This document shows positions 1 to 64,000 of a DNA stretch of 64,000 nucleotides, piece by piece. Source of the DNA: Planoprotostelium fungivorum (lineage: Eukaryota; Evosea; Variosea; Cavosteliida; Cavosteliaceae); contig MDYQ01000378.1 in the NCBI GenBank assembly GCA_003024175.1, positions 42,470 through 106,469 on the forward strand, read 5' to 3'. Every line of letters begins with the position of its first letter. Position 1 is the first letter of the stretch. Below the pieces are notes generated by a model that did no database searches, had not been told where the DNA came from, and saw only the letters and a list, made by a program, of their open reading frames with translations. The position numbers and the translations under genes were made by a program.

Positions 1-3000
1 ACAAGGTGAGAGGAGAAGTAGATGAAGAAGAGACTGACGGAAGACAAAGAGAGAAGAAGGAAGAGAAGAGAGATTGATCGTCTCCCCCGTAGTACAAGTG
101 AGGAAGGAGAAGATGAAGCTGGGAAAAGAATACGAATCAGAGAGATCTGAGCCAGAAGATGTACCACGCTACACTTCTACTCCACACAAGAATCGATCGA
201 CCGAGAGAAGAGACAATCGAGACAAGAGGATCTCATCAGGTGATGTCACAATTACACAACTCGAATTCGAACGATTGATCTTCACGGAGAGACGAAGTGA
301 TGGCTGACTCGATATCAGAGGACGAATCAGAGAACGATCGATCCACATTCAGACGTGAAGAAGGAATGACCTCACCCGAAATGTACCGCAGCGGCCGAGA
401 ATTCTCAGAGCACTCCACAGAATCCAGTCGAAGGGTAGCCCCGAGGCCCACCTTATCCAGCACGAACAGCCGCAGGACCTTTGCTCCCAAGAACAGAGAC
501 GACGACGCCTTCTATTATTCTTCTGGAACGGAGAGCTTCGAACGAAAGAGACAAGACAGGAGTCAGCAGGTAGAGAAGGTGAGAGGGAAGAGAAGAACAT
601 ACTCCTCACCTTTTCAGATGGATAGGAATCGAGTGAGAGAAGAGGAAGAAGTGCAAGTGGATCGAATCAGGAGATTAGAAGAGAACGAGAGGATGAGGAG
701 AGAAGAAGAGACGAGGGAGAAGAGGAGAGCGGAAGAGAAATACGGGAGGGAGAGAAGGGAGGGACACAGAGACGACGAGAGGGTGAGAGGGAGGGGAGAG
801 AGTGTTTGTGATGGATAGCAGGAGAGGAGGTACAGGAGTGAAGAAGATCGATACGATGAAGAGAGGAGATATGGAGAAGAGAGGAGAACGGGTGAAGAGA
901 GGAGGTACGAAGAGAGGAGACATGAAGAGAGGGGGTACAGCTCAGAGAGAGGTTACAATGACGAGAGGAGAGGAAGAGAAGAGAGAGGAAGAGAAGAGAG
1001 AGGAAGAGAAGATATCAGAGGAGGAAGAGAAGATATCAGAGGAAGAGAAGAGAGGAGATACGGAGACGAAGAGTATCGATTGAGCCCAGGAAGAAGAGAA
1101 GAAGAGAGGAGAGAGGGAAAGAGTGAGAGAAGAGAAAAAGAGGAGAAGAATGACAGAGAAGCAGGGAGAGAGAGATACGAAGGAAGAGAAGTATCGGAAG
1201 ACGAAGGTGAGTCTTCTCGCTCCCCATGGCCTCAATAAAATCAACACGGCATTCTCTCTTATTTTCTCTTCTTATTGAGATCTTCTACAGACAGAGCTCC
1301 GTTCCATCCTGCCATCCATCCATCTCTTCGGTGATTTGTTCATCATCCATACAATCATATTATAATCACAATCATATTACAATTACCATAATAACCTATC
1401 TTTGTTATCTAGAGACCTAAGTTGATATCGATGGCAGAGGAGTGAGGGGAAGAGAAGATAGAGGAAGAGAAGACAGAGGAAGAGACACGCAGGGAAGACG
1501 AACGATCGAAGGCAGAGACATGCAAGGAAGAGGAATGATAGAAGGAAGAGATACAAGAGAAAGAGAAGAGAGGGAGAGCAGCCAAGGGAGAGAAAGAAGG
1601 GATCCGAGAGGAAGAGAGACAGTGGAGGAGAGAGGAAGAGACATTATTCCTGACGAGAGGAGAGGAAGAGATATCAGATACGAGAGAGAGGGAGGACAGA
1701 AGAGAGAAACGATCGAGAAGAGAGAGAAGGGAGGACTCGCTGTATTAGGCTTGGTCTCTGCGAGGAGGGAAGGATCAGACAGAGAAGAAGAGAAGATAGA
1801 CAAGACAGAGAGAGAGGCAGAAGAGATGGAGGGGCAGAAGAGAGAGATAGAGAGAAGGAGAGAGGAGATGGAAAGAGAGAGAGAAGAGGTGGAGAGAGGA
1901 AGGGAAGCAGCGGAGAGACAGAGGAGAGAGCTGGAGGTAATGATGGGAGAGATGGCTAGAGAAAAGCAAGAGATAGACAAGAGGAGGGAAGAAGAAGAGA
2001 GAGAACGAGAGGAGATGGAGAGGAAGAGGGAGAGTGTACAGAAAGAGATCGAGGAGATGGAGAGACAGAGGGAGGAGATGGAGAGAAAGAGAGGGGAGAT
2101 GGAAAAGATAATGCAAGATATGGAGAGGAATAGAGGAGAGACGGAGACAGAGGGGGCAGACGAGAGGGAAGAGGAGAGAGGAGAAAAGGAAGAAGAGGAG
2201 GAAAGAGGAGACAAGAAAGAGGAAGAAGAGGAGATAGAGAGGAAGAGGATAGAAGTGGAGAGAGAGAGACGGGAGACGGAGGAGAAGAAGGAAATGGTGG
2301 AGAAACAACGAGAAGAGGTGGAGAAGGAGAGGTTGGAGATGGAGAGAGAGAGGGAGGAAATGGAGAGGAGGAGAGAGGAAATGGAGGAACAGAGAGAAGA
2401 GATGGAGAGAAAGAGGAGAGAGATGGAAGAAGAGACTGAGAGAACGAAGAAGCAGATAGAGATCTTAGAAGAGGAGAGAAAGAGAGAAGAAGAGATGCAA
2501 AAGGACGAAGAGAAGAGAAGAGCGGAAGAGGAAAGAGCAGAGATGGAGAGAGCGAGGGAAGAGATAGAGAAGAAGAGAGGAGAGGTAGAGAAAGAACAAG
2601 AGGAGATAGCGGAGGAGAAGAGAGAGATAGAACAGACGAGAGAGCAGGTGAGGAGAGGTGGAGAGAAATGCTGAAGAGATCAGATGAGCGAGGACAGAAG
2701 AGAGATAGAAGAGAAGAGAGATGAATTAGAGAAGACGAGAGGTCTGATTGAGAAAGAGAAGGAAGACATAGCCAAGGAGAGAGAGGCGATGGAGAGAGAA
2801 AGAGAGGAGAGAGAGAAGACGGTGGGGGAGAGAGGAGACAGTGAAATAGAAGGAAGGACGACAGACGAGAGACAGAAGGAATTAGAAGAGAGACAGAAAG
2901 AACTAGAGGAGAGAGAAGAGAAGATGGAGGAGGAGAAGAGAAGAGCGGAGCAAATGGAAATCCAATTGAAGGAAGAGAAGGAGAGGGTAGAGGAGGAGAA

Positions 3001-6000
3001 GAAAGCGATGGAGGAGGAGATGAAGAGGACAGAAGAAGAGAGGAGAAGAGAGAGAGAGGAGATGGAGGAAGAGCAGAGGAGGATGAAGGAAGAGACGGAG
3101 AGAATCGATCAATACAAGAGAGAGGTGGAAGAGGAGAGGAAGACCATACAAGAGGAGAGGAAGAGGATAGAGGAGGAGAGGGAGAGAATAGAGGAAGAGA
3201 GGGAGAGAATAGAGGAAGAGAGGGAGAGAATAGAGGAAGAGAGGCAGAGGATGCTAAAGACAACAGAAGAGGAGGGGGAGGGAAGAGAAGAGATCTTGAC
3301 CAACGAAAAATCTCAAGTCCGCGAGTTTAACCCCGAAATGAAGATAGAGCCATGGGATGACGCCGAGGTTGAGGAGACAAGGGTGAGACAGATCCATCGA
3401 CACATCACATCCACAGAGGATGGTATCTGACATAGGTCACAGACACACGAATCGATGAGTTCCATTAAGGATGTCAATCGACCGAAGCGTCCGACCACTG
3501 CCTTCACGATCTTCTCTCAAGACAAGAGACCCGAGCTGAAGGAGAGACATCCCGAGCTGATGATGGCAGAGTTGACTGCCAAAACGGCTGAGGAATGGGA
3601 GACCATCACACCCATGGAGAAGCAAAAGTACATCGACCGAGAAGAGAAGGAGACCGTTGAGTACGAAGAGTCTGTGAAGGCTTTCGAGGAGGGACGAGTG
3701 GCTGCCGCAGCCAATTCAGAACAGAGACTGGAGGAGGAGAGAGACATGGATGCAATGAGAGAGGACAGACGGAGGATAGAGGAGAGACAACGAGTAGAGG
3801 AGAACGAGAGGATGATGACGATGATGGAGGAGGAGAGACAGAGAGTGGAAGAAGAGAAGAAGGGAGTCGAGGAAGAGAAGAGAAAGACACAAGATGAGAG
3901 GGGGAGGATAGAGGAAGAGAAGAGAAGGACAGAGGAGGCGAGGGAGAGGATAGAGGAGGAGAAGAGGAAGACAGAAGAAGAGAGGGAGAGGATAGAGGAG
4001 GAGAAGAGAAGGACAGAGGAAGAGATGAAGAGAATCGAGGAGGAGAAGAAAGAGACAGAACGAGAGAGGGAGAGGATAGAGGAGGAAAAGAGGGAGATGA
4101 AGGAAGAGAAGAGGAAGACAGAGGAAGAGAGGGACAGAATAGAGGAGGAGAGGAGGAGAATAGAGGAACAAAGCGAAAAGATACAAGGAGAGACAAGGAG
4201 GATCGAGGAGGAATCAACACGAGTGGTGGAGGAGAGAGAGAGGATGGAGAGGGAGAGAAGAGAGATGGAAGAAGAGAAAGCAAGGGTACAAATGGACAAG
4301 ATACAGATTCAAGAGGAGATGAAACGGATGGAGGAGGAGAGACACAGAATAGAGGAGGAGAAACACAGAATAGAAGAGGAGAGGCGGACAATGGAAGAGG
4401 AGAGGAAGGGAATGGAAGAGGAGAAAGAGAAGGGAGAACAATTGGAAGAGAAGGGAATCATCGAAGGGGAAGAGGAGAGAATGGAAGAGGAGAAAGAGAA
4501 GGGAGAACAATTGGAGGAGAAGGGAATCATCGAAGGGAAAGAGGAGAGAATGGAAGAGGAGAGGCACATCGAGGAAGAGAGACGAAGAGTGGAGGACGAT
4601 AGAATAAGAGTGGAAGAAGAGAAGATGAAGACGGAAGAAGAGAGGGAGAGGATAGAGGAGGAGAAGAGGAGGATAGAGGAACAAAGCGAAAAGGTACAAG
4701 GAGAGGCAAGGAGGATCGAGGAGGAATCAACACGAGTGGAGGAAGAGAGGAAGAGATTGGAGGAAGAGAGACAAAGATTGGAGGAAGAGAGAGGAAGACT
4801 GAAAGAAGAGAAGGAACGATTAGATGAGAACAGACGAAGAGAAGAGGAGATGAGAAGTGACAGAGAGAAGAGAGAGGACGGAGAAAGCACACAAGAGAGA
4901 GAAAAGGAGGAAGCTGAAGTACATAAGAGAATGGAAGAAGAGAAGAGCCGATTGGAGGAAGAGAAGAGACGATTAGAGGAAGAAAAGAGACACTTAGAAG
5001 AAGAGGAGAGGACGATAGAAGAAGAGAAAATGCGAGCGAAGGAGCTGATCGACCAAATGGAGGGAGAGAAGAAGAGGATGGAGGAAGAGAGGAGTAAGGT
5101 CGAAGAAGAGAGGAGTAAGGTCGAAGAAGAGAGGATACAAGTGGAAGAGGAGAAGAAGAGGATGGAAGAAGAGAAGAAAATAACAGAAGAAGAGAAGAGA
5201 CAGATGGAAGAGACGAGGAGAGAATTAGAGGAGAGAGACGAGAAGATCAGAGAGTTACAGAGATCCCTCGAAGACATTCGCAGCCAGATGATGACCAGAG
5301 AAGAAGGCACAGTGGAAGACCAATTCAACCAACTGGAGCGTCAGAGGTGAAGTCCAGTGAGGCTTATCTGTACATCTTACTGAACCACGGAAGAGATGAG
5401 ATGAATCGAGAGATGAGCTCGGAGCGAAAGAAGATAGAAGAGGAGAGGGAAGCACTCCGATTACAGCTACAAGAGATCCAGAGAGAAAGGTGAGATGAAA
5501 TAAGAGAGAATGGGTAGAATTGATGGAAACAGATCGAAGATCGAAGAAGAGAAGGAGATGACGGATGTTGCATTGGTGGAATCGTCTGAGAGGTGAAGAG
5601 AGGCACGTAGAAGATTACTTAAAGGATAGCAGAGAACACGAAGAGGTAACATCTACTCAATTGGACGAAGAGAAACAGAAGCTCTCCAGAGAATATGAAG
5701 CTCGTTTGGAGCAGGAGAGGGAAAAGATCCGCGAGTCTGTGTTAGAACAGGTGAGAGTGGGCATTGAATCGTAGCTGATAGATGTGCAGGAAGCAGAGAA
5801 GAGAGATCAGTTGATCATTGCAGAGAGAGCCAAGCTCGATCAGTATCATAGCCTGATGATGATGGAGGCAGACAAGCAGTTGAGAGAAGAGAGAGAGAAG
5901 AACAAGAAAGACATGGAGAGAATGAGAAGAGAATTAGAACGGAAGATAAGGAGGGAGATAGAGGCAGAGCAGAAGGGAATTGGTGCCATATTCGGCTTCC

Positions 6001-33723: not shown

Positions 33724-36629
33724 TCACCCCCATCTCATGATCGTCTTCTGTCCCTTCTTGTTCTGCTGTTGCTGCTGCTGTTGCAATTGATACGCCGCCC
33801 CCCATTCGTCTCCGTAGGGTTCGAAGGCCTCCGCCTTCTGTTCGACCTTGGGCTTTCCCTTGTTCTTCTTTTGCGTCGGCAGACTGGGGAAGTCGGTGGG
33901 GGCCATGGAGGGTGATACCATGCTGTGGCCTCCCCTCCATCCCGCACTCTCCCTCATCGCTCTCAGCATGTTGGCCTCGTCCTTTCACCTTCAGTCTCCT
34001 CCCTCTCTCTCCTCTCACCTGAGATACCGTCCCGATCTTTCGAGGTACGGTCTGGTTGGTGTCGTGCGTTGCGGGTTTGTGTCTGTCTTCTCTGTCCTTG
34101 TGTCTGTCTTCTCTGTCGTGTGTCGCCTGCGTGTTGTATACGATGGTGGGTTGTGGCTGCACCCTCCTCGATGGAGCGTTCGGTGTCGAAGTCTTTGCGA
34201 TCTTGCTGAAATCGATCTCCTTCTTGCTGGTCTTCATTTGTTTCTTCGGTCCCTCGCCCAGCTGTGGATAGACTCTCTCCTGCTCGTGTTACCTCCTTCA
34301 TCTCTTCTCTCTCACCAGTTGAGCGACTTTCTGCTTGATAAGAAACAGTTGCTTCTTCTTTCCAGAGTCGGGTAGTAACGAGACGACCTGAATGTGAGAG
34401 TCAATAGAATTCAGAGTCAAGAGTGTCGGTGTGAAACGAAGAAACACCTGGTCGAACAGATCGAATATCTGTTGCTTAGGGTAATCTGTTCTTCCAGAGA
34501 AGAAGGACATGAATCGATCGAAATATTGTTGTGGCGTCAGAGCATCCTTGAGCAGCTCTCCTGATATCCCCTTGAACTGGTTATATCCTCCCTCCCCCAG
34601 TATCGTCTTCAGCTTCTCGATCAAGTTCTTGTTGTTTCGCTTCAACTCCTCTTGGTCTACTTCCTCCTGCTCTTCTTTTCCATTGACGGGGGCGGCCGCC
34701 TGCTGTACCGTCGCTCTGTTTCTCTCTTCCGTCTGCTCGTGTGACCTTTCGTTCTCTTCTTCCGTTCTCTCACCTGATTGGCTCTTCCACGTTGGTTTCT
34801 GTCTTCTGGTTGTTTTCCTCTGTGGTTTCGATCTTCTGCTGGATCGTATTCGTTGAAGTTCCAATCGACTTTGAGTTGTCTCAGTTTCTTCTCTTCATTA
34901 CGACTCAGATTTCTCTCGTGAAGATGAGTCGAGATCTGATGGGGGTCATCAACATCATCATCATCGTGTCCTGTCCATCACCTCGTGAGTCTGAAGATCC
35001 AATGCGGTTCTGAAGACGATGAACTTCTGTTCCAGACATTTGACATCTGTTCCACGTCAACCTTCGCCCATCCTTTTTCTCACCTCTGCACAAGAAATGC
35101 TCTCGATCGAAATGTTTCTCCAAATTCTTATACTGATTGTAGTACTGGTACCGTATTCCATCTTTCTCACACAAGAAACACGTGTAGTGATTCTATTGGA
35201 ATGAGATGAATCAACCAATGGAGGTGACTCACCCTCTCGAGGTGCTCGTACAGCTGATCGTTGGAGAAGAAAGGCATGGACACGGGGGTCTGATCGGTGC
35301 CCCTTCCGGTGTAGCAGAACTGACAGACGGGATGACCGGATCCCTCATCAGTGTCCATGTCTCCCGTTCGGATGTGAGATTCTAAACTGCTCTGACTGTA
35401 CAAGTTTGTCTCGTGCGTGAACTTTTTCCTGTGGATGAGACACACTTGGCTGTCTCTTCTCAGCCTTCTTCATCGCATTTGAAACGCTCCCACCAGAAGA
35501 ATAGATTGTGAGAGGATTTGAGATGTTGCTCCAACTGTTGAATGGACTTGTGAGTGAGCTNGTGCGTGAACTTCTTCCTGTGGATGAGACACACTTGGCT
35601 GTCTCTTCTCAGCCTTCTTCATCGCATTTGAAACGCTCTCACCAGAAGAATAGATTGTGAGAGGATTTGAGATGTTGCTCCAACTGTTGAATGGACTTGT
35701 GAGTGAGCTGAGAGGGAACGGGAGGCAACAAGGTGACGTGGTTTCCGTTGTGGACACCCGGTGACTTCTGATCGTCATCCTTCTCACAGATGATGCATCT
35801 GAAGTCGAGAAGATGAGCGATCTGGGCTTGCAGCTCCTTCTCTTGTCGGGGTAGATACAAGTTCATCTGCTTCTCGAGGACGTAGTTGTCGTCTAAAATC
35901 AAATCTTCGTAATTGCTGTCTGCGGAGGTGATCACCACGTAGTCCAGACTGGTCTATCTTCGTGTCATTTGGGGAGTAGAGAACGGTGCTCACTTTGCAG
36001 ATGCAACAGTCTTTGTCACCAAAGAGTAATCTCAATCGGAGGGAGCACATGCAACAGACTTGACGGTGGTTGCATCTTCCGATGGCGTAGTATTTGAAGT
36101 CTTGTAGGACATTGCAACACACGAGACAACTCTCTTCTTCGTCCTGTACAGGGTCAGTGTCTATTGTTGATTTTCTGTTGATTGTTTCACCTCACTCACC
36201 GGTTCGGGTGCCTTCTTCTCTGTTGTGGATTCTTCTTTCGAAGCCTGTGGCTTGTCTCTCGTGTCCCCTCGGTTCTTCTTCTTCCCTCCTCTTTGGTTTC
36301 TCGACTTCTGTTGTTGCTGTCTCTGCGCTTGTTCTGTCTTCTGTTTTCCATCCTTCTCATCTGATTTCTTGTCGTCTTTCCCATTCAAGTAATAATCGAA
36401 TCTGCAGATGGGTCGATACGACTGACGCACTACATCCTCACCTGAAGCTCGTATTGTTCTGGTTCGAAGGTTTAGGAAATCCTGAAGCCTGTGTTGGATT
36501 GAAACCAGGTGGTGGATCCTGGGGACGAGCTAGACCTGGTGGTGGTCTCCTTCCCCTGCCAAAACTCTTCTGTTGATCGCTCTCCTCTCTCTGTCCTGAC
36601 CAATTTCCCTTACCATTGCTGTCCATCAT
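33724..36629 (-). CDS. ZNF598: ZNF598/Hel2-type E3 ubiquitin ligase
   Basis: ZNF598/Hel2 senses collided ribosomes and ubiquitinates 40S proteins, including eS10, to start quality control. A Gly/Pro/Arg-rich N-terminus (MDSNGKGNWSGQREESDQQK) and a Lys/Gln-rich basic stretch precede the C2HC-type RING, visible as SCLVCCNVLQDFKYYAIGRC, NHRQVCCMCSLRLRLLFGDK and DCCICKVSTVLYS. Zinc-finger segments follow: HVTLLPPVPSQLTHKSIQQL, CLIHRKKFTHETNLY, VCQFCYTGRGTDQTP and EKHFDREHFLC. The C-terminus has FSGRTDYPKQQIFDLFDQVF and a poly-Gln run near 33780. The gene is interrupted by an assembly gap at 35561 flanked by a duplicated 148-bp segment, so the stretch 35413-35709 needs to be collapsed before the exon structure makes sense. 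Divergent from PA2G4, 173 bp away. Confidence 0.93.
35413..35709. repeat. 148-bp duplication either side of a single N
   Basis: 35413-35560 and 35562-35709 are the same sequence apart from about two mismatches, with one N at 35561. It begins GTGCGTGAACTT and ends GAGTGAGCT in both copies. An unmerged contig overlap is the likely cause. Confidence 0.9.
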
Positions 36630-54569: not shown

Positions 54570-57500
54570 TAGAAAGAGCAATCGAAAGCTACCGAAGAGA
54601 AGTGAGAGAATGAGAGTGTCACAGACTGATTCGAACAGACAATCACTACCGTTTGGGTGACTCTCTACTATTCGGTGGTCATCTGAAAGCTACGGGGGAA
54701 ATGCCACCCAAGATCATCAACTCCTTCACGAGGCCCATCTCCACTGAACTCAAGCCCGAGGCCATCCAAGAAGAATTCGAAGAGAGAGCCTCTTCCTCGG
54801 AAGAGAATGCGTGGACCGTCAGATGGACCGACAACAATTCCAATTTCATGGCCAACGTGGAGACGGTCCGACGTCTGAAGAAGAGGTAAGAGGACCTCTC
54901 AGTCAGTCTGATGAGCACCAGTGAGGTCAAACCTGAAGCTCCCCCCACCACCACCACTGTGAGCGAAGCATTACTCAGTCGACCCACATCGGCAGCCACA
55001 GTGTCTGCACTATCACCCATCAAAGAGATCAATGGGCAACAGCAACGGACGGAGAAATGGTTGGATGCCCTCGTTCGTAACGCCGTATATCAATCTGCTG
55101 AGAAGGTGTGTGAGACAGAACGGAAGGAGGGTGACATCATTAGAAGGGAGAAGATGCAGAGTACAAGGTCAGGGAGCAGGACGGAAGACAGAATGCATCG
55201 AAGACCCTCGTCAGACACATCGTCGATGAATTCGTACTGGATGACTCCGTGAGATCGATTCACATCGATTCCCATCTCTTACTCTCCACGATCTTCTTAT
55301 TTGTTCTTCATGTGTATGACATATATATTCCATTCTCACACAAGCAGTCGTCTAACTCCGAGGGTATCCTCCTGTCTTTATTCCTGGAGATCCTGTCACA
55401 TCATTCAGAGGAAAGTCGCATCCGTGCATTCGATCTGTTGTACAACATTCAAGTCCACATCCAGAACCTTTTGGACCATCACACAGACAAAGACAACATC
55501 AGTAAACTAGGCACACTGGATCGACATCAAGGTGATGATCTCACAGATAGACAATAAGTACGATCTATGTTTGAGTCATCTGCATCTGATGGATATGAAT
55601 GATCGAATCTATGAATTACATCTGATTCGTCACAGCGAAGAAAGTGGCAGCCTTGGGGAACAACAGTCAAGACATCATCAACAGTTTGTACGATATCTTT
55701 GCAGATATGCTGCTGTACCTGTGGCACAATGACGAGATGTCCGAGGCAGTTTGGCTGGCTAGCTTCAAAGTTCTCATCTTCCTGTTGACAGACAGAGGAA
55801 GAATTCTAAAGTCCAAGTGAGAGTTGTGGTGGAATGTTGTCTGAGTAGCATAGATTGCAGACCTTGGATATCCGCTTGATTGTAGTCATGTCCGATCGCA
55901 TCGGGAGTAAATTGGACGTCGAGACGGAGAGACTCCTCTCTCGCCTGCTGGTCAATGGATTGTATCCTTTCTTCTCCCCTTCATACAATTCTCTTCTCCT
56001 CTGATAGACTCTCTTCCTTGACCACGTAGATATCGCACCACTCTGATGCTGGACGTGAAACTGCTGTCACAGGCGTGCCATTCCTCGGTGACACAGGAGA
56101 GCCGAGCGATCGATGCGATCATCACAAAGTACGTGAGAGCCCGTTCATTGGAGCAGAGAGAGAACATGTTCGTCATCCTCTACGACTACATCGTCGACCA
56201 GCTCAACATCAAGACGGCCAGACACACGGAGATCGTCAATCGAGCTAGCGCAGACATCATCTGGTTCCTCGATGTGAGTGAGAGGAGACGAATGGACTGA
56301 CCAAGACAGTTGTTGAGGGCCATCAATGCACCGTATCACTTTGTGGATGCATTCCTCATCACACCAAAGAACTTTGGAGAGAGAATCTGGAACACCCTGA
56401 CTGGAATATGGCCATCCTTCGCAGCCAAGGTGGACAAGCAGTTTGCCCTTCTGGTCCTACAAGAGGGTTTCGAGAAGCTGGCCAACCAGTACACGAAGGT
56501 GATCGTTCGGTCAAGGGTGACACGGAGTGACAGTCTCCAGTTGTCTCCTGAGGTGGAGAGCGCCCTGGAGGGTCATCACTTGGGAGAGCATCGATTGGAG
56601 ATGCTCACTGCCCTACTGAGCTCACCCTACCCCTTCAACAGGAGATCTGGAGAGAGGTGAGGGCTTCAAGTGGCTTGATTGACATCTACAGATGGCTGAC
56701 AGAGTTGATCCTCCATCACTTGGATGACCCCAACGTAGGATGGCTCAACTCATCGTCTCATTCGAGTGATCCCATCAACAAGATGTTCTTGTCTCTGTGC
56801 CAATCCACCGACACGAGCATGAAGAGATCTTTTCTCAACATTACACAGAACCTGTTGATCTCCCTACGATACAGAGTGAGAGGAAGCTGTGTTCTCCACT
56901 CATTTCCTCAGATGTCCACGTGGGGAGAGGAGTCCATCGTCAACAAGATGGCCACTGTCCTCAACGACAACATCCAAAAATTGATCAAATTGAGCTCGGG
57001 AGAGAAACCAAACAGTTCGATTCTGCGCGGAATATCAGACCTCATCCTCTATTTCCTGTGTAACCCATTGGAAGGTGGACACCATCCACTGTCAAACTCA
57101 ATTCTCTCAGAGCCATTGGAAGATGGAGGAGAGGTGGATGTATTGGCTACGCACTTTCTCAACGGCCGCGTGGAGGTGATACAGATCCACGAACGAATAT
57201 AACACGTACAGGTGTCGAAGAACTGTCTGAAGCACCTGAACATCAATCACCTCCTTTATCTTCTAACATGGCTCCCCGACCTAACGGATAACACGAGCAC
57301 TCGAGTGATGCTCCTCCACCTGTTCATTGTTAAGATCAAGACTGGAGGATCACTGAAAGAGTCTCTCGAATCTATCGGGGGAATCCCCTTCATGCAGAAG
57401 CTGATTAGTGACCCTGAGCCCACCGTATGTTAGTGAGTGACAAGGAGAGATGAAGAGCTGAAGAGAACAGCCTGGCAGCTCGGTTCATCATTGAGCACAT

Positions 57501-57651
57501 GGAGAGGGAGAACCAAGATCAGTATCTGAGGCTATTGAAGGGGCTTCTCTTGGCAGCTCAAGAGAGAGACGATGGAGACCGTGTGGTCTACAATCAATTT
57601 TGGCAGATCAAAAAGATTGGGGAGATGATTGGGGAGAAGAAGAAGCAGTAA
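54570..57651 (+). CDS. Large helical protein, family not recognised
   Basis: A multi-exon gene of about 850 residues. The start is uncertain: the frame is open before MPPKIINSFTRPISTELKP (ATG 54701) as HYRLGDSLLFGGHLKATGE, so it probably begins in an upstream exon. Segments: EAIQEEFEERASSSEENAW, ILLSLFLEILSHHSEESRIR, FDLLYNIQVHIQNLLDHH, YDIFADMLLYLWHNDEMSE, VWLASFKVLIFLLTDRGR, RASADIIWFLDLLRAINAPY, FERLANQ-like EGFEKLANQYTK, and NCLKHLNINHLLYLLTWLPD. The repeated amphipathic helices suggest an armadillo/HEAT-like scaffold. The last exon ends IGEMIGEKKKQ. The C-terminal half is best supported. I do not recognise the family and give no function. Confidence 0.65.
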
Positions 57652-59114
57652 TGTTGGTACTCTGATGTTTCATAAAGCTGAAAGTTCCTCCCTTTCATTT
57701 GATAATGAGACCACAAATAGTGGTCACAAGGCACAGGATGGAACCAGGAAGACAATTCAAGAACCATGTGCTGAAATTATGAAAAAAGACTAATATGATC
57801 TTATACCCATCCTCTGTCAAGTGGCGTGGTTGCCACTCTGTTCACATAGTTCAGTGGGTGTCAATGCGCCGCCAAAATGAGAAAATTGCCAAATGTAGAC
57901 CTTGACAGGGACTAGAACAAGGCCATGGCTCGCATTGAAGTCAACTGCACACACACAGAGAAGATCAATATGAAACGACAATACAAGGTGACACCTTACT
58001 GATTGAACATCAGACAATGGAAGGCAATTGTATCTGAATGATCATCTTGATGCAGCTTACCTATTCTGATGCATTTTGCAGCAGGGATGACTCTGACAGG
58101 GAAGATCTTGAAGTTAGGATACCATTCTAAATGATGCTCACTTCAGTCAGAGATCTGATTTTCCACCTCCACCTTACCCCCAAATCTTTTCCTCTCAGTT
58201 GAGCAAGATGGTCAGATCAGGAGGTAGCGTTTCTTCTGTCTCTTGTGTCAACCCCCCTTGAGGTGATGTGCAATCACACAATCATGTGACAACTCCCAAC
58301 TCTCAACTCTGTGGTGTGATTTTATTTATGTTTTTTATACTCAACAGTGCAGTTTGCCCCAAGCCTAGTGAGTGGATGATGTGATTTTGTTGTGATTGTT
58401 CTCTGCTTTGTGATTATAGTAGTTTGTTGTTCTAATGTGTGGTTGTTTATCCAAGATGTATATAAAATTGGTACTATTTTGAACATATGTGCCCTTGTAG
58501 TATGATTTCCTCCTTCTTTCTCTGGACATCCAGTGTCTCAACATATGATTTGTTTTTTCTGGTTGGTAGTCAAATGGTGCATTGAGAATGGATCACTTCT
58601 CTCCTGACTACTGGAATATGCACAACAAAAAAATGCATGGACACCAACCAGAAAAACCAAATCATATGTCATTGACCACTCCTGCAAGTGATCCTCCTCT
58701 ATGAATTTACTTATTCTACATAGGTTGATGTTCACATTGTCAGATCACATGGATTGGGATTCTTTTTGCTTAGTATACCTGTCTCTGCAGGGTCTTGATG
58801 ATGCAATGCTATGTGTGTGTTGGAGATATATGTATCACCTGTTGTGTTACCAAATATATTATTGTTCCAATGTGGTGTATGGACTGTATGATGTTCTATG
58901 TGCAATGTGTATTCTCTATTTGACAAATTGAAGTCAATGTTGGCATCATCTTGTGGATCAACATTAACATGTGGAATAATAATCAGGCATAAGATATGTG
59001 TTTGTTTTTTGTGCAATTAAATATAATCAAATCTCAGACAGCAAACCATCCTCAAAGTGATGAGCTATCTTCTCCTTGCAAAGTTTGGATCAGATTCTCA
59101 ATAATTTATATTTA
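57652..59114. other. AT-rich, gene-poor stretch
   Basis: The composition shifts sharply to AT-rich DNA after the last host gene. No open frame here resembles a known protein. An inverted repeat lies at 58542-58567 and 58643-58668. Likely decayed mobile or intergenic DNA. Confidence 0.6.
58542..58668. repeat. 26-bp inverted repeat, 75-bp spacer
   Basis: 58542-58567 begins CATATGATTTG and its reverse complement recurs at 58643-58668 with one mismatch. The whole could be a small hairpin or a MITE-like insertion of about 127 bp. Confidence 0.75.
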
Positions 59115-59501
59115 TTAATTATTTAGATAATTTTTGAGGATATTCTGATAACTAATCTGTGCTACACTGACATAATTCAGCAGCTCCATATTGTTCTTTG
59201 TCATCAGCAGAGATCTATAGTTTGCTGTGCCCTGGAGTAACAATTCCACATCACTTCTGCAGTAATACATCATATATTCTCCAAATGATGCAAATTGCTT
59301 CTCTTTCCATATATTCACAGCATGCCCATATTCAGCCTCTGAAGGCAGAGTATTCTTAAGTTTGTTATGAAAATACTCAATTGGTGGCAAAGATGTTTCT
59401 GAGAGCTTATCTAAGCTATCTGAGATGTTTTGACCACATTGTGCAAAGTATTGGTCCCTTAAAGTAATAGCTTTTTCTCTCTGCTGTTTACTCAAAGTCA
59501 T
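59115..59501 (-). pseudogene. Fragment of a protein-primed family-B DNA polymerase (Polinton-type)
   Basis: A 128-codon open frame from ATG 59501. It contains DSLDKLSETSLPPIEYFHNK and LPSEAEYGHAVNIWKEKQF, followed by FGEYMMYYCRSDVELLLQGT. In protein-primed PolB of Polintons and related elements the segment K-L-x-E-x-x-LPP-x-x-x-F, then x-Y-x-H-A-x-x-x-W, then a DYxxxYxxxDVxLL exonuclease motif occurs in this order, and here the motif reads EYMMYYCRSDVELL. The first Asp/Gly residue of the motif differs. The rest of the polymerase is absent, so this is a remnant. It faces the integrase on the other strand. Confidence 0.65.
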
Positions 59502-59879
59502 TTTTTCTTAGATCACCAATATAACCTAAGGATTTCAGAGAGTGTACCAGTAATTGTCTTTCAGTTGGCATGATAAATTGTCAATTTGTAATATATAACT
59601 GATGATCTTTTTTAAAAATGTAATTTATTCAATATAGTAATATTTATTTATATAGAAATAGAAAGTGATTTATAGAGAATATGCACAGAGGGAAAAGACA
59701 AAGAATTGCACCTAGTTTGACTGAATATCTACTCAGTATACGGCTGGATCCTTCTACTACATCAAATTCTATTGAAGGATTATATAGAAGTGCTAGCAGA
59801 CATAATATCTTTAAAATGGAATTCACAGTTGATGATATTTAGAGTTTTCTATCTCATCAATCAACTTATAAGGGATACT

Positions 59880-61268
59880 TAGGTTTCAACTTACAATGCA
59901 AACAGCAGAAACACACTATTGTACCTGTACCATTGGTTAAATGGCAGATAGACCTTGCAGATATGCAGAATTCTGCTGAGTGCAATGATAGCACTGGCTA
60001 TCTTCTGACAATTATTGATTGATGTATTCTCTAAGTATGCTTTGGTAATTCCTTTGCAGAATAAGCAAGGAAAGACTATAGCCAGGGCTTTAGATTATAT
60101 TTTTAGAATCAAAATAAACAATAAGGCATATAAGCCAATGATTTTGCTTTCAGATAATGGAAAAGAGTTTATTGCAAAAGAAGTGAAACAAGTATGTACA
60201 GATCATGGAATACACCAGTTGACATCATTTCCATACACTCCTTTAGGTATTATAGAAAGGTTCAACAAGACTATCAAACAAAAAATAGCTCAGTATCTTT
60301 CAGTATACAGAACACAGAGGTATATTGATGCCTTAGAGCTTATTACAGTGAATCATAACCATTCTTATCATCATACTATCAGGGAATTGCCAGCAAATGT
60401 CCATTTTGCAAATAGATCACTTCATAAGCTATTAATACCTCAATTGCATAATTATTACAAATATCTGAATGACAAAAATAACCCAATAATTTCTGAAACT
60501 CTACATTACACTAGAGGAGACAAAATAAGAATACAAGCACATATCACCCCATTTATTGCACCTGAGCAGCAGAGGAGACTTTCAGCAAAAACAAAATCAA
60601 CAGTACCAAATTGGTCTAGTGAAGTATATACAGTCACAAAAAAGATTATAGATGGTAAGTTTATCTTTTATCAGGTTAAGGCAGCATCAGGAGTGGTGTA
60701 TCANGCAAAAGAAGTGAAACAAGTATGTACAGATCATGGAATACACCAATTGATGTCATTCCCATACACTCCTTTGGGTATTATAGAAAGGTTCAACAAG
60801 ACTATCAAACAAAAAATAGCTCAGTATCTTTCAGTATACAGAACACAGAGGTATATTGATGCCTTAGAGCTTATTACAGAGAACTATAACCATTCTTATC
60901 ATCATACTATCAGGGAAATGCCAGCAAATGTCCATTTTGCAAATAGATCACTTCATAAACTATTAATACCTCAGTTGCATAATTATTACAAATATCTGAA
61001 TGACAAAAATAACCCAATCATTCCTAAGACTCTACATTATGCTAGAGGAGACAAAGTAAGAATACAAGCACATATCACTCCATTTATTGCACCAGAGCAG
61101 CAGAGGAAACTTTCAGCAAAAACAAAATCAACAGTACCAACTTGGTCTAGTGTATATACAGTCACAAAAAAGATTATAGATGATAAGTTTATCTTTTATC
61201 AGGTTAAGGCAGCATCAGGAGTGGTGTATCACAGGAAATACTATCATTGGCAACTCCAGAAGCAATAG
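59880..61268 (+). pseudogene. Polinton/Maverick-type DDE integrase, frameshifted
   Basis: The frame begins before 59930 as KWQIDLADMQNSAECND and is broken at about 60017-60024 by a 4-bp duplication (GATT/TGAT), which creates a stop. It resumes as IDVFSKYALVIPLQNKQGKT and runs to 61268. Catalytic residues are the Asp in QIDLADM, the Asp in LLSDNGKEF and the Glu in GIIERFNKT, with about 33 residues between the last two. The C-terminal part ends YQVKAASGVVYHRKYYHWQL, like the Polinton integrase ending (G-x-F/YY-x-x-ELQ). The second part repeats the first around an N (see the separate entry). Because of the frameshift and the duplicated middle, no intact integrase is encoded here. Confidence 0.8.
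60174..61231. repeat. 530-bp integrase segment repeated either side of a single N
   Basis: 60174-60703 and 60705-61231 align along their length with a few percent substitutions and one 3-bp difference. Both start GCAAAAGAAGTG and end GTGGTGTATCA. Either two element copies joined by the assembler, or two haplotypes. Confidence 0.85.
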
Positions 61269-62418
61269 GGTGTTCAGAGAGTGGGTGATTTAATGTCCTG
61301 TAGCTGATTTTATATAGACCTATGACTTCTTTTTTAGTTGTTAATTTGTTTTGAAGCTTTAACTTAATGTCAGCAACATCAGCTGAGGGTATTTTGAGAC
61401 TATGTTCATCTCTCAGAATAATTTTCAGTTTTAAATGGCTTAAACCCTAGATTGTATTTTGCAGAGTTCTCCTCTTGTACAACCTATATGATAATCTTGA
61501 ATCACATTGTTATATAAACCTTGAGAAACATCTTGCTTCAACTTGGTATCTGAAACTTTGCTGAAATGAAAGCTTGTAATGACGATATCTTCAGCATTCT
61601 TCATTTTCCTCCACCACACAACACATACCACATCACTGCCCATGGCTTGATGGAACAACTTAACAACACACTCAGGAAGAGAAGTAGCTCCACAAGGAAC
61701 AGCATACCACAACCTCGAGAGGTGCAAGAAGCTCAGAAGAATCTGGAGGGTCTCACTGCCCAGCTTGTCAGTAAGTTTGTGGTGTGTCAGCAATGATACA
61801 CTTGACAATATTGTAAACGACTATGGAGTTGTGGATCCAGTCCACCAATGCACCTTACATGTCATCAGTCTCAGTCTTTTGGTTATGTGCTCTTCCTGTT
61901 GGCAAAGCGTCTGGGAAATCAACAACAAAAGCCACCTCATTGCAAGTATTACACAGACAATTATCAATCTCACATCTTTGAGTGGCTTGCTACAGCAAAG
62001 AAGGTGCCGCTCCCACAGAAGCCCCCAGTCTGGTTCAAGACCAACAAGTCTTATCCTGGTGAGTTATCTCCCACTGTCAGATTCTCACAATTCAATAGAA
62101 TTTCTCCAGCAACTCCAGGACTCTTGTGGCAGCAAAGACATCAGTGACAATTGGGAGGCACCACATGAACAGCCCTGTGATCAAGAGGCACAGGTTGACA
62201 AAGACCAGTTGATCCAAAGTAAATTACATTTATTAATGGTTTTATTGATATTATGTCTATTGTAGATGGCACTCTGTCCCTTGTATATTAACGTGAAATA
62301 ACGTGTCATAAAGAGAGAAATACGGTGTTATAACGAAGATATACTGTACAGTATGTGGAGCAATTTTATGTAATATCAGGGCACTGACAACGGCTCAAAA
62401 CGTCACATTATATGGTTC
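61269..62418. other. AT-rich stretch, no supported gene
   Basis: Short open frames on both strands (61440-61808 minus, 61566-61796 plus, 61848-62147 plus) have no family resemblance that I can name. Likely decayed mobile or intergenic DNA. Confidence 0.5.
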
Positions 62419-62784
62419 TTGGCCTACTGCCAATCATACAAGGGACATCTGGATCTTCCTGCTGCTAGAAGATTACAAGATGCTTTGATCATCCTCTCAT
62501 CTCTCTCTGCAGGTGGCCAAAGACCTCAATTTGTCCATCTCTTGGAGTACGATACAATCAATGGCAACCCAAAGATAGGATTCTTCCTTTGTATGCCCGA
62601 TGAGAAGATCATACAAGTGGCTGGAAGTAGAGTGCCATTACTGCTATCAATAGCTCATTTCTGGCAATATTTTGTCAAACACGCAAGACCTGTACTGATG
62701 TCAGAGGATCAAGAAGCTTGGTACAGATCACAGGATCCACATCTCAGTGGTGAAGAAGAGAAAGGTAGCAATCAGACAGATTGA
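62395..62784 (+). pseudogene. Possible fragment of a transposon protein, unidentified
   Basis: An open segment containing LDLPAARRLQDALIILSSLS, AGGQRPQFVHLLEYDTING and FFLCMPDEKIIQ. The Gly-Gln-Arg after a hydrophobic helix and before L-x-x-x-D recalls the first catalytic Arg region of tyrosine recombinases (as in Crypton-like elements), but the other catalytic residues are not visible. No in-frame ATG starts it. The call is tentative. Confidence 0.25.
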
Positions 62785-63039
62785 TTGCCATCTCTTTTAT
62801 GATACAAAAGGCAGAGGAGCAGGTGAGAACAAGATGAAAGATGCGTCTCTAAACTGAAATCAGAGCCAAAATCAGTTGATTGATGCATCAAGAACTTTGT
62901 TTCCACATATGTACCAGAGGCCAAATATGGTACTGGAATGTCCATCCATAGATCCTTTGCATCTTACGTCTTCCTTGGATGGCAAACTGAAACAGGAGAG
63001 AGAGTTGAAGTAGGAGACTACTGTATAACTTGTCTTGGA

Positions 63040-63275
63040 GACTGTTTCAGCACAGTCTCTGTCTCAGCGTCGAGACGCAGGCGACACAAGAGGGTGTCTT
63101 GACCCGTCTTGTCTCTGACAAAACTGCAAGACAAGACAAAGACAAGACAAACAAGTCTTGTCTCGGACCGTCTCAAAACTGTCTCAAGGTTTTATTCTTT
63201 CTCTTTTCCGGGGATACGGGAACAAACCCTTTGCAAGACCACGCACTCTCTGTCTTGTCTTGCAATTTTATGTCT
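63040..63275. repeat. Cluster of short direct and inverted GACAAGAC/GTCTTGTC repeats
   Basis: Tandem GACAAGACAA units at about 63125-63155 are flanked by inverted copies (GTCTTGTCTCTGAC at about 63104, GTCTTGTCTCGG at about 63155, CTGTCTTGTCTTGCA near 63250). The segment could fold into hairpins. It lies in the AT-rich mobile-DNA zone. Confidence 0.65.
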
Positions 63276-63665
63276 CTGCAGGTCCTTACTACTGTAAGCT
63301 GATAAACTATCCAAATCTCTCCATCCCAGTCACAACAAATCTGTATCCAATATTCTTGGCTTCATACATGATATTGACGATGTTGTTGATCAAGAGGATG
63401 AAAGAGAAGAGTCAGATCAAGAACAGAAAGAGGAAACATATTATCTATGATCTTGAGGAATACCTCACCCAATACAAGTGGATTCAGGCAAACCCTTCTC
63501 AGAACCAATCCTACAACTACAAGGTGAATCTATCCTCTTTCTGTACATGAGGTGAACTGGTTCAGGTAGGAGGTCACATTTCTGTGAAGATTGACATTGA
63601 TGTGAGAATCAACTCCAAAAGACACCACTTGGAGTAGAGATTTGATGAAAGGAACAACAAAACTG
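63276..63665. other. Unassigned region
   Basis: An open stretch around 63280-63550 encodes SIPVTTNLYPIFLASYMIL, which could be a membrane helix, followed by a Lys/Arg-rich part. No start, family or exon structure can be supported. Confidence 0.3.
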
Positions 63666-63983
63666 TTATGACGCTACGTTGTAGAGAAGGAATATTGACG
63701 AGAAAAGGAATTGATTTAACGGTCTACAATTGTATTGTGTAATAAAAAGGGATTGTTCGAAGCCCATCCAAAAGGAGAGGTCTCGTACACAAACTATCCA
63801 AGTTGCCCATCTTCGTGAATCCTTTGCCCTACTATCAAGAGTGAGATCATCCAACCATAACATCCTTCGATGGACATCATAATCAACAGTATCATCGTCA
63901 GATTTATTAGATAAATCATCTACGCCGATTGAGTCTTTAATTGCTGCTCGTGAGAATCGCGATCTGATTGAAGATTGATTCAT
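63666..63983 (-). CDS. Open frame at the right edge, unrecognised
   Basis: 105 codons from ATG 63983. MNQSSIRSRFSRAAIKDSIG is followed by an acidic stretch and LWLDDLTLDSRAKDSRRWA. No family recognised; it may be the first exon of a longer gene or a chance frame. Confidence 0.3.
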   Translation of the reverse strand: MNQSSIRSRFSRAAIKDSIGVDDLSNKSDDDTVDYDVHRRMLWLDDLTLDSRAKDSRRWATWIVCVRDLSFWMGFEQSLFITQYNCRPLNQFLFSSIFLLYNVAS

Positions 63984-64000
63984 ATCATTGGAGAAGAAGC

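Follow-up and report, generated by a model that had tools for sequence, protein, structure and literature searches.

Genes and gene fragments at the locus

We analysed a window of 64,000 nucleotides from the Planoprotostelium fungivorum genome (36.9 Mb in 471 contigs), comprising positions 42470-106469 of contig MDYQ01000378.1, the right side of which runs to the end of the scaffold. Positions 59122-61551 of the window (~2.4 kb) hold pieces of a DNA polymerase gene (PolB) on the minus strand, an interrupted integrase gene (INT) on the plus strand and the remnant of a third gene (Table 1). G+C content is 33.3% in this stretch versus 48.3% in window positions 1-57000. The original prediction, made from the letters of the window and their translations, had described PolB and INT as converging; PolB on the minus strand lies to the left of INT on the plus strand, and the two genes are divergent. 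The distance of 0.4 kb that it gave between them is correct for the KWQID motif of the integrase, but the start codons are only 109 bp apart. For this shared upstream region we infer, and only infer, a two-way promoter.

Table 1. Features of the PolB-INT locus, in window coordinates
Feature	Position	Strand	Evidence and remarks
PolB, later part of exonuclease region	59122..59420	-	blastn blocks of ~85-96% to other copies; inside the PF03175 span of the C412 frame
PolB, piece of N-terminal (probably vOTU) region	59418..59492	-	blast blocks and coordinates
Unmatched 10 bp at second deletion joint	59493..59502		~0.7 kb missing relative to C396 and C7
First PolB codons, start codon 59571	59503..59571	-	DNA match to other copies from 59503; out of frame with downstream pieces
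Region between divergent PolB and INT starts, 109 bp (59571 to 59681)	59572..59680		continuous matches to other copies
Integrase, first piece	59681..60703	+	start codon 59681; TAG 59840; frameshift separates first D from second D and E
Single N, probable assembly join	60704		flanking repeat
Integrase 3' part, second run	60705..61268	+	to 61231 repeats 60174-60703; conserved C-terminal ending
Third element gene, remnant	61204..61551	-	frameshifted near 61446; cut at 61551; corresponds to 138-aa ORF in other copies

The main integrase frame (60009-61268, 419 aa) matches the Pfam rve domain at 3.3e-14. The KWQIDLADM entry, the D-D-E residues and the YHRKYYHWQL-type ending that had been noted for this frame are all present at the locus, but they are divided between two frames: the entry and the first catalytic D lie in the preceding frame (59843-60022), and the second D, the E and the ending lie in 60009-61268, with the change of frame at about 60009-60022. 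The spacing between the second D and the E is 33 residues. The same spacing is found in 35 of 69 homologues, with 34 residues in five, 35 in four, 36 in one and 24 not scorable; the motif alignment comprises 17 of the 69. The D-x33-E homologues include two Caenorhabditis proteins with a chromodomain, which we take to be Maverick-type.

On the polymerase side, the open frame 59115-59507 (minus strand, 130 aa) has by itself no Pfam match at E<=1 and a single match among PHROGs, at 0.13. At E<=0.001 it has matches at 36 further places in the genome; the best eleven are 84-93% identical across residues 30-129 or the greater part of them, and weaker, shorter matches range down to 49%. Since the C412 frame, which has PF03175 at 3.5e-17, is among these 36 matches, we regard the assignment of the fragment to PolB, judged from sequence, as far beyond chance. 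PolB frames of the family reach 1242 aa, and a profile search of the genome placed PF03175 at 10 places, nine of them above cut-off. Relatives of the protein number 602, and several of the best 120 of these carry PF02945. Judged by eye, open PolB copies have an N-terminal region that looks like the vOTU arrangement published for polinton PolB (PMC11071308), from which we infer that the family polymerase would have a vOTU region and be protein-primed. Two P. fungivorum proteins deposited under the names acyltransferase and calmodulin-dependent kinase also include PolB sequence and are probably fused gene models.

Relationship to Polintons

PolB and INT matches occur together on 13 contigs and are divergent in 11 of these, the window included; C74 and C165 are the exceptions. 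For PolB, C99 and C170 contribute no more than a short N-terminal piece. On this pairing, on an integrase that stands apart from gypsy-like integrases and on terminal inverted repeats (TIRs) in other copies, we identify window positions 59122-61551 as, very probably, an inactive piece from a P. fungivorum family of Polinton (Maverick) transposons, as had been predicted. The resemblance to Polintons extends to the PF03175-type polymerase, the D-x33-E integrase without an H2C2 finger by eye, and the TIRs of related copies.

The principal competing origin for INT is a Ty3/gypsy retrotransposon or a Ginger element, with an unrelated piece of PolB beside it by chance. The rve domain is common to gypsy, Ginger and Polinton-type integrases, and the genome does contain gypsy-like integrases (C193, C397 and C252), which we take to be gypsy by their H2C2 and YWWP-type motifs as seen by eye, the profile search having returned rve only. 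These three have a D-E spacing of 35 and an H2C2 finger by eye, and occupy a separate branch (100/100) of the integrase tree, whereas the window family, with its spacing of 33, belongs to a supported group of 11 (100/99); the two Caenorhabditis chromodomain proteins fall in the other large group (96/98). The tree is midpoint-rooted and comprises 30 of the 69 listed integrases, the C396 copy and the three gypsy-like sequences, two of them nearly identical. No H2C2 finger is seen by eye before the core of the open C396 integrase, in agreement with what is reported for Polinton integrases (PMC2836005). Ginger2 integrase lies near Polintons in a published tree but has an H2C2 zinc finger (PMC2836005); the family described here is set apart from it by description, as the finger is not seen and PolB is present.

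Chance pairing was rejected: other copies hold PolB and INT in the same order around the same intergenic region, and in C396 both genes lie between one pair of termini, in a stretch with one N. A gypsy or Ginger origin is thus very improbable. Neither a gypsy or Ginger integrase nor a cellular polymerase emerged from these comparisons, and Polinton matches are present elsewhere in the genome, although the tree contains no named Polinton or Ginger integrase. No relative emerged when viral contigs were scanned with the C396 integrase, in a set that may not include records near the P. fungivorum genome.

Decay and truncation of the window copy

The window copy is dead, because PolB carries two internal deletions and the element a stop codon and frameshifts. 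The frameshift and missing polymerase body of the original prediction are therefore borne out; the in-frame TAG at 59840 that interrupts INT had escaped mention. Between the exonuclease piece and the 59418-59492 piece, which are fused in frame, ~1.05 kb has been deleted, with 3 bp common at the joint, and a further ~0.7 kb is missing at the second joint. Both sizes are arithmetic from blast coordinates with C396 and C7 as reference. Neither deletion joint was found among the 73 other loci examined, a set in which many loci overlap.

Homology of the PolB piece stops at 59122, where PolB runs on in other copies. On the right, homology to the element extends past the integrase frame to 61551, and beyond that point 10 of the 11 copies shown keep related sequence, one for ~20 bases only. 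As other copies continue past both 59122 and 61551, the fragment is cut inside the element on both sides and therefore has no terminal repeats. Consistent with this, inverted repeats in 57500-64000 are at most 28 bases long and none frames the fragment as terminal repeats, the family terminal repeat was not found in the window, and the fragment has no target duplication of its own. C262 was considered as an empty site and rejected: the right flank (61565-62421) finds a match of 88-93% there, but 9 kb were compared without a match to the left flank. What the window copy retains is thus the middle of an element: portions of PolB, INT, the upstream region between the two, and the beginning of the gene that follows. 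Both ends are gone, as are two internal pieces of PolB, and the stop and frameshifts have been acquired.

A deposited gene model, PROFUN_09048 (399 aa), covers the fragment, and 419 codons are open across the N at 60704, as might be expected of a domesticated or still-used gene. In this model, however, assumed introns remove the stop, the frameshift and some of the core, and the model extends across the duplication at the N; the deletion joints are not found in the 73 other loci tested. We consider continued use as a gene highly unlikely. The locus is an ordinary fossil of a known kind, and better-preserved Polinton copies lie elsewhere in the same genome.

A duplication hinged on a single N

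The 3' part of the integrase is present twice, a feature that was not part of the original prediction. Positions 60174-60703 and 60705-61231, either side of one N, are 95.1% identical over 530 columns. We collected 22 distinct single-N sites in the window and in the fetched loci, one of them untestable. Of the remaining sites, 18 of 21 are flanked on both sides by a direct repeat that lies within 700 bases of the N, versus 0 of 55 random control positions in the window, which are less repeat-rich than the fetched loci. The repeat abuts the N on both sides in 8 of the 18 sites, and in one it is only 36 bases long; the three sites that have no repeat all have <300 bases on one side. The other N of the window, at 35561, is flanked by a 148-base direct repeat at 98.6% and is probably another assembly join. 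The second run of the integrase 3' part most likely arose in assembly, where contig ends that overlap were joined at one N. More generally, a single N in the P. fungivorum assembly is often the sign of an unresolved join that distorts gene models.

The two integrase halves differ by dS 0.11 and dN 0.028, and the other nine comparisons give dS 0.13-0.30, so that two alleles and two copies are both possible. In the latter case the locus would be a chimera, with pieces of two Polinton copies joined at position 60704 and an arrangement right of the N that may be absent from the chromosome. The divergence of the halves, close to the lower end of the differences from other copies, the repeats at 18 of 21 testable single-N sites against none of 55 controls, and the position of the window at the scaffold end all fit such a chimera. 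The same pattern would be expected of two alleles at a single locus, however, and only sequence to the right of the N is in question: PolB, the intergenic region and the INT core are contiguous to its left. We regard a chimera as a serious possibility, though one that falls somewhat short of an even chance.

Termini and extent of the family

Six copies have a terminal boundary in common, which ends 5'-CATCATATAAAAAG and in two copies 5'-CATCATAGTAAAAG. The boundary is inverted on the INT side (C7, C429, C396) and on the PolB side (C396, C412, C224), and by this arrangement of the sequence it is assigned as the terminal inverted repeat of the family. In C396, PolB and INT both lie between two inverted termini. 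These are 10,172 bases apart, with one N in the interval, and show 86% identity over 71 columns and 89% over 97. C95 (6964-9278) has two family termini 2.3 kb apart, with 76 bases at 93%, and is perhaps a short derivative of the element.

Polintons have a 6-bp target site duplication, and their termini start with AG. The family termini differ, reading 5'-CATCATA. No matching 6-bp target duplication is visible in either of the two copies with both ends read, namely C396, with an N between its ends, and the 2.3-kb derivative in C95. It also differs in that the window copy is a truncated fragment and that the one terminus-to-terminus copy, of 10.2 kb, has no recognised capsid module.

From what is established for related families, we propose that working members would enter the chromosome as linear elements through a retroviral-type integrase, and that a protein-primed family B polymerase would copy them from the terminal inverted repeats. 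In all three pairs of open integrases (C396, C7, C429) dN/dS is 0.09-0.13, as expected of a family that stays functional while multiplying. The genome holds 134 matches to the 273-aa gene of the integrase-side arm, 48 to INT and 37 to PolB, counts that are indicative only, as the query lengths differ.

A possible capsid-less lineage

The original prediction had called the element a relative of virophages. Its Polinton-type nature stands, but a capsid-bearing state is without support: profile searches with PF21738, PF04665 and PF00770 gave no matches, with control genomes positive for PF04665 only. The search of the remaining genome that had been suggested yielded open PolB and INT copies and inverted termini, but no capsid, ATPase or C5 protease genes in the family, by tests that are weak.

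In the C396 copy, outside the PolB body and besides INT, the longest of the listed frames has 326 aa. The ORFs of 138, 273, 145/148 and 326 aa match no Pfam family at cut-off. Low-confidence structure models are helical nearly throughout, without a jelly roll, both for the 273-aa ORF (18 sequences, mean pLDDT 58.8; 17 of 37 listed proteins in the alignment) and for the 326-aa ORF (single sequence, 54.7). The latter is a neighbour of PolB in C396. Its matches number 49, on 26 contigs, and we are unsure whether it belongs to the element, because only four of these contigs also have a PolB match. Introns could hide further genes in the family copies.

In some family members (C412, C442) PolB may have a superfamily 3 helicase as its neighbour. 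A helicase-like gene adjoins PolB at C412:3912-4982 and neighbouring frames, one of which has DUF5906 at 2.2e-6. The helicase query has 15 genome matches on 11 contigs, with a PolB match also in C412 and C442 and none in the other nine.

Capsid, packaging ATPase and protease genes are usual but not universal in Polintons, and capsid-less Polintons are already in print: nine that lack MCP also lack PRO and ATPase, which is described as concerted loss (PMC4028283). The present case differs from those in its amoebozoan host and in that the absence is drawn from weak profile searches, ORF lists and two low-confidence models. With these observations in mind, we tentatively suggest, as an idea we hold a little below even, that P. 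fungivorum has a compact capsid-less Polinton lineage of ~10 kb, in which INT and PolB stand back to back, small orphan genes replace the virion module, and members remain under selection while multiplying and shed short derivatives of the integrase-side arm.

Our finding adds a Polinton family in a protosteloid amoeba, and the family around the window copy could shed light on the path from virus-like Polintons to plain transposons. Among the entries listed by a literature search, with most subscription journals outside its scope, there was no published account of a P. fungivorum Polinton family, and Protostelium is not named in the main texts of PMC10120064 and PMC11702301.

Neighbouring sequence

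Several repeats lie around the fragment. A ~200-base repeat at 63664-63870 has many copies in the genome, at 83-99% identity among the matches listed, and is also found near the Polinton copies in C99, C377, C165 and C422. To the left, 58041-58371 is a repeat that is 81-86% identical to C142, C24 and C369. Window positions 1-6000 are strongly purine-skewed and contain long frames of highly charged repeats.
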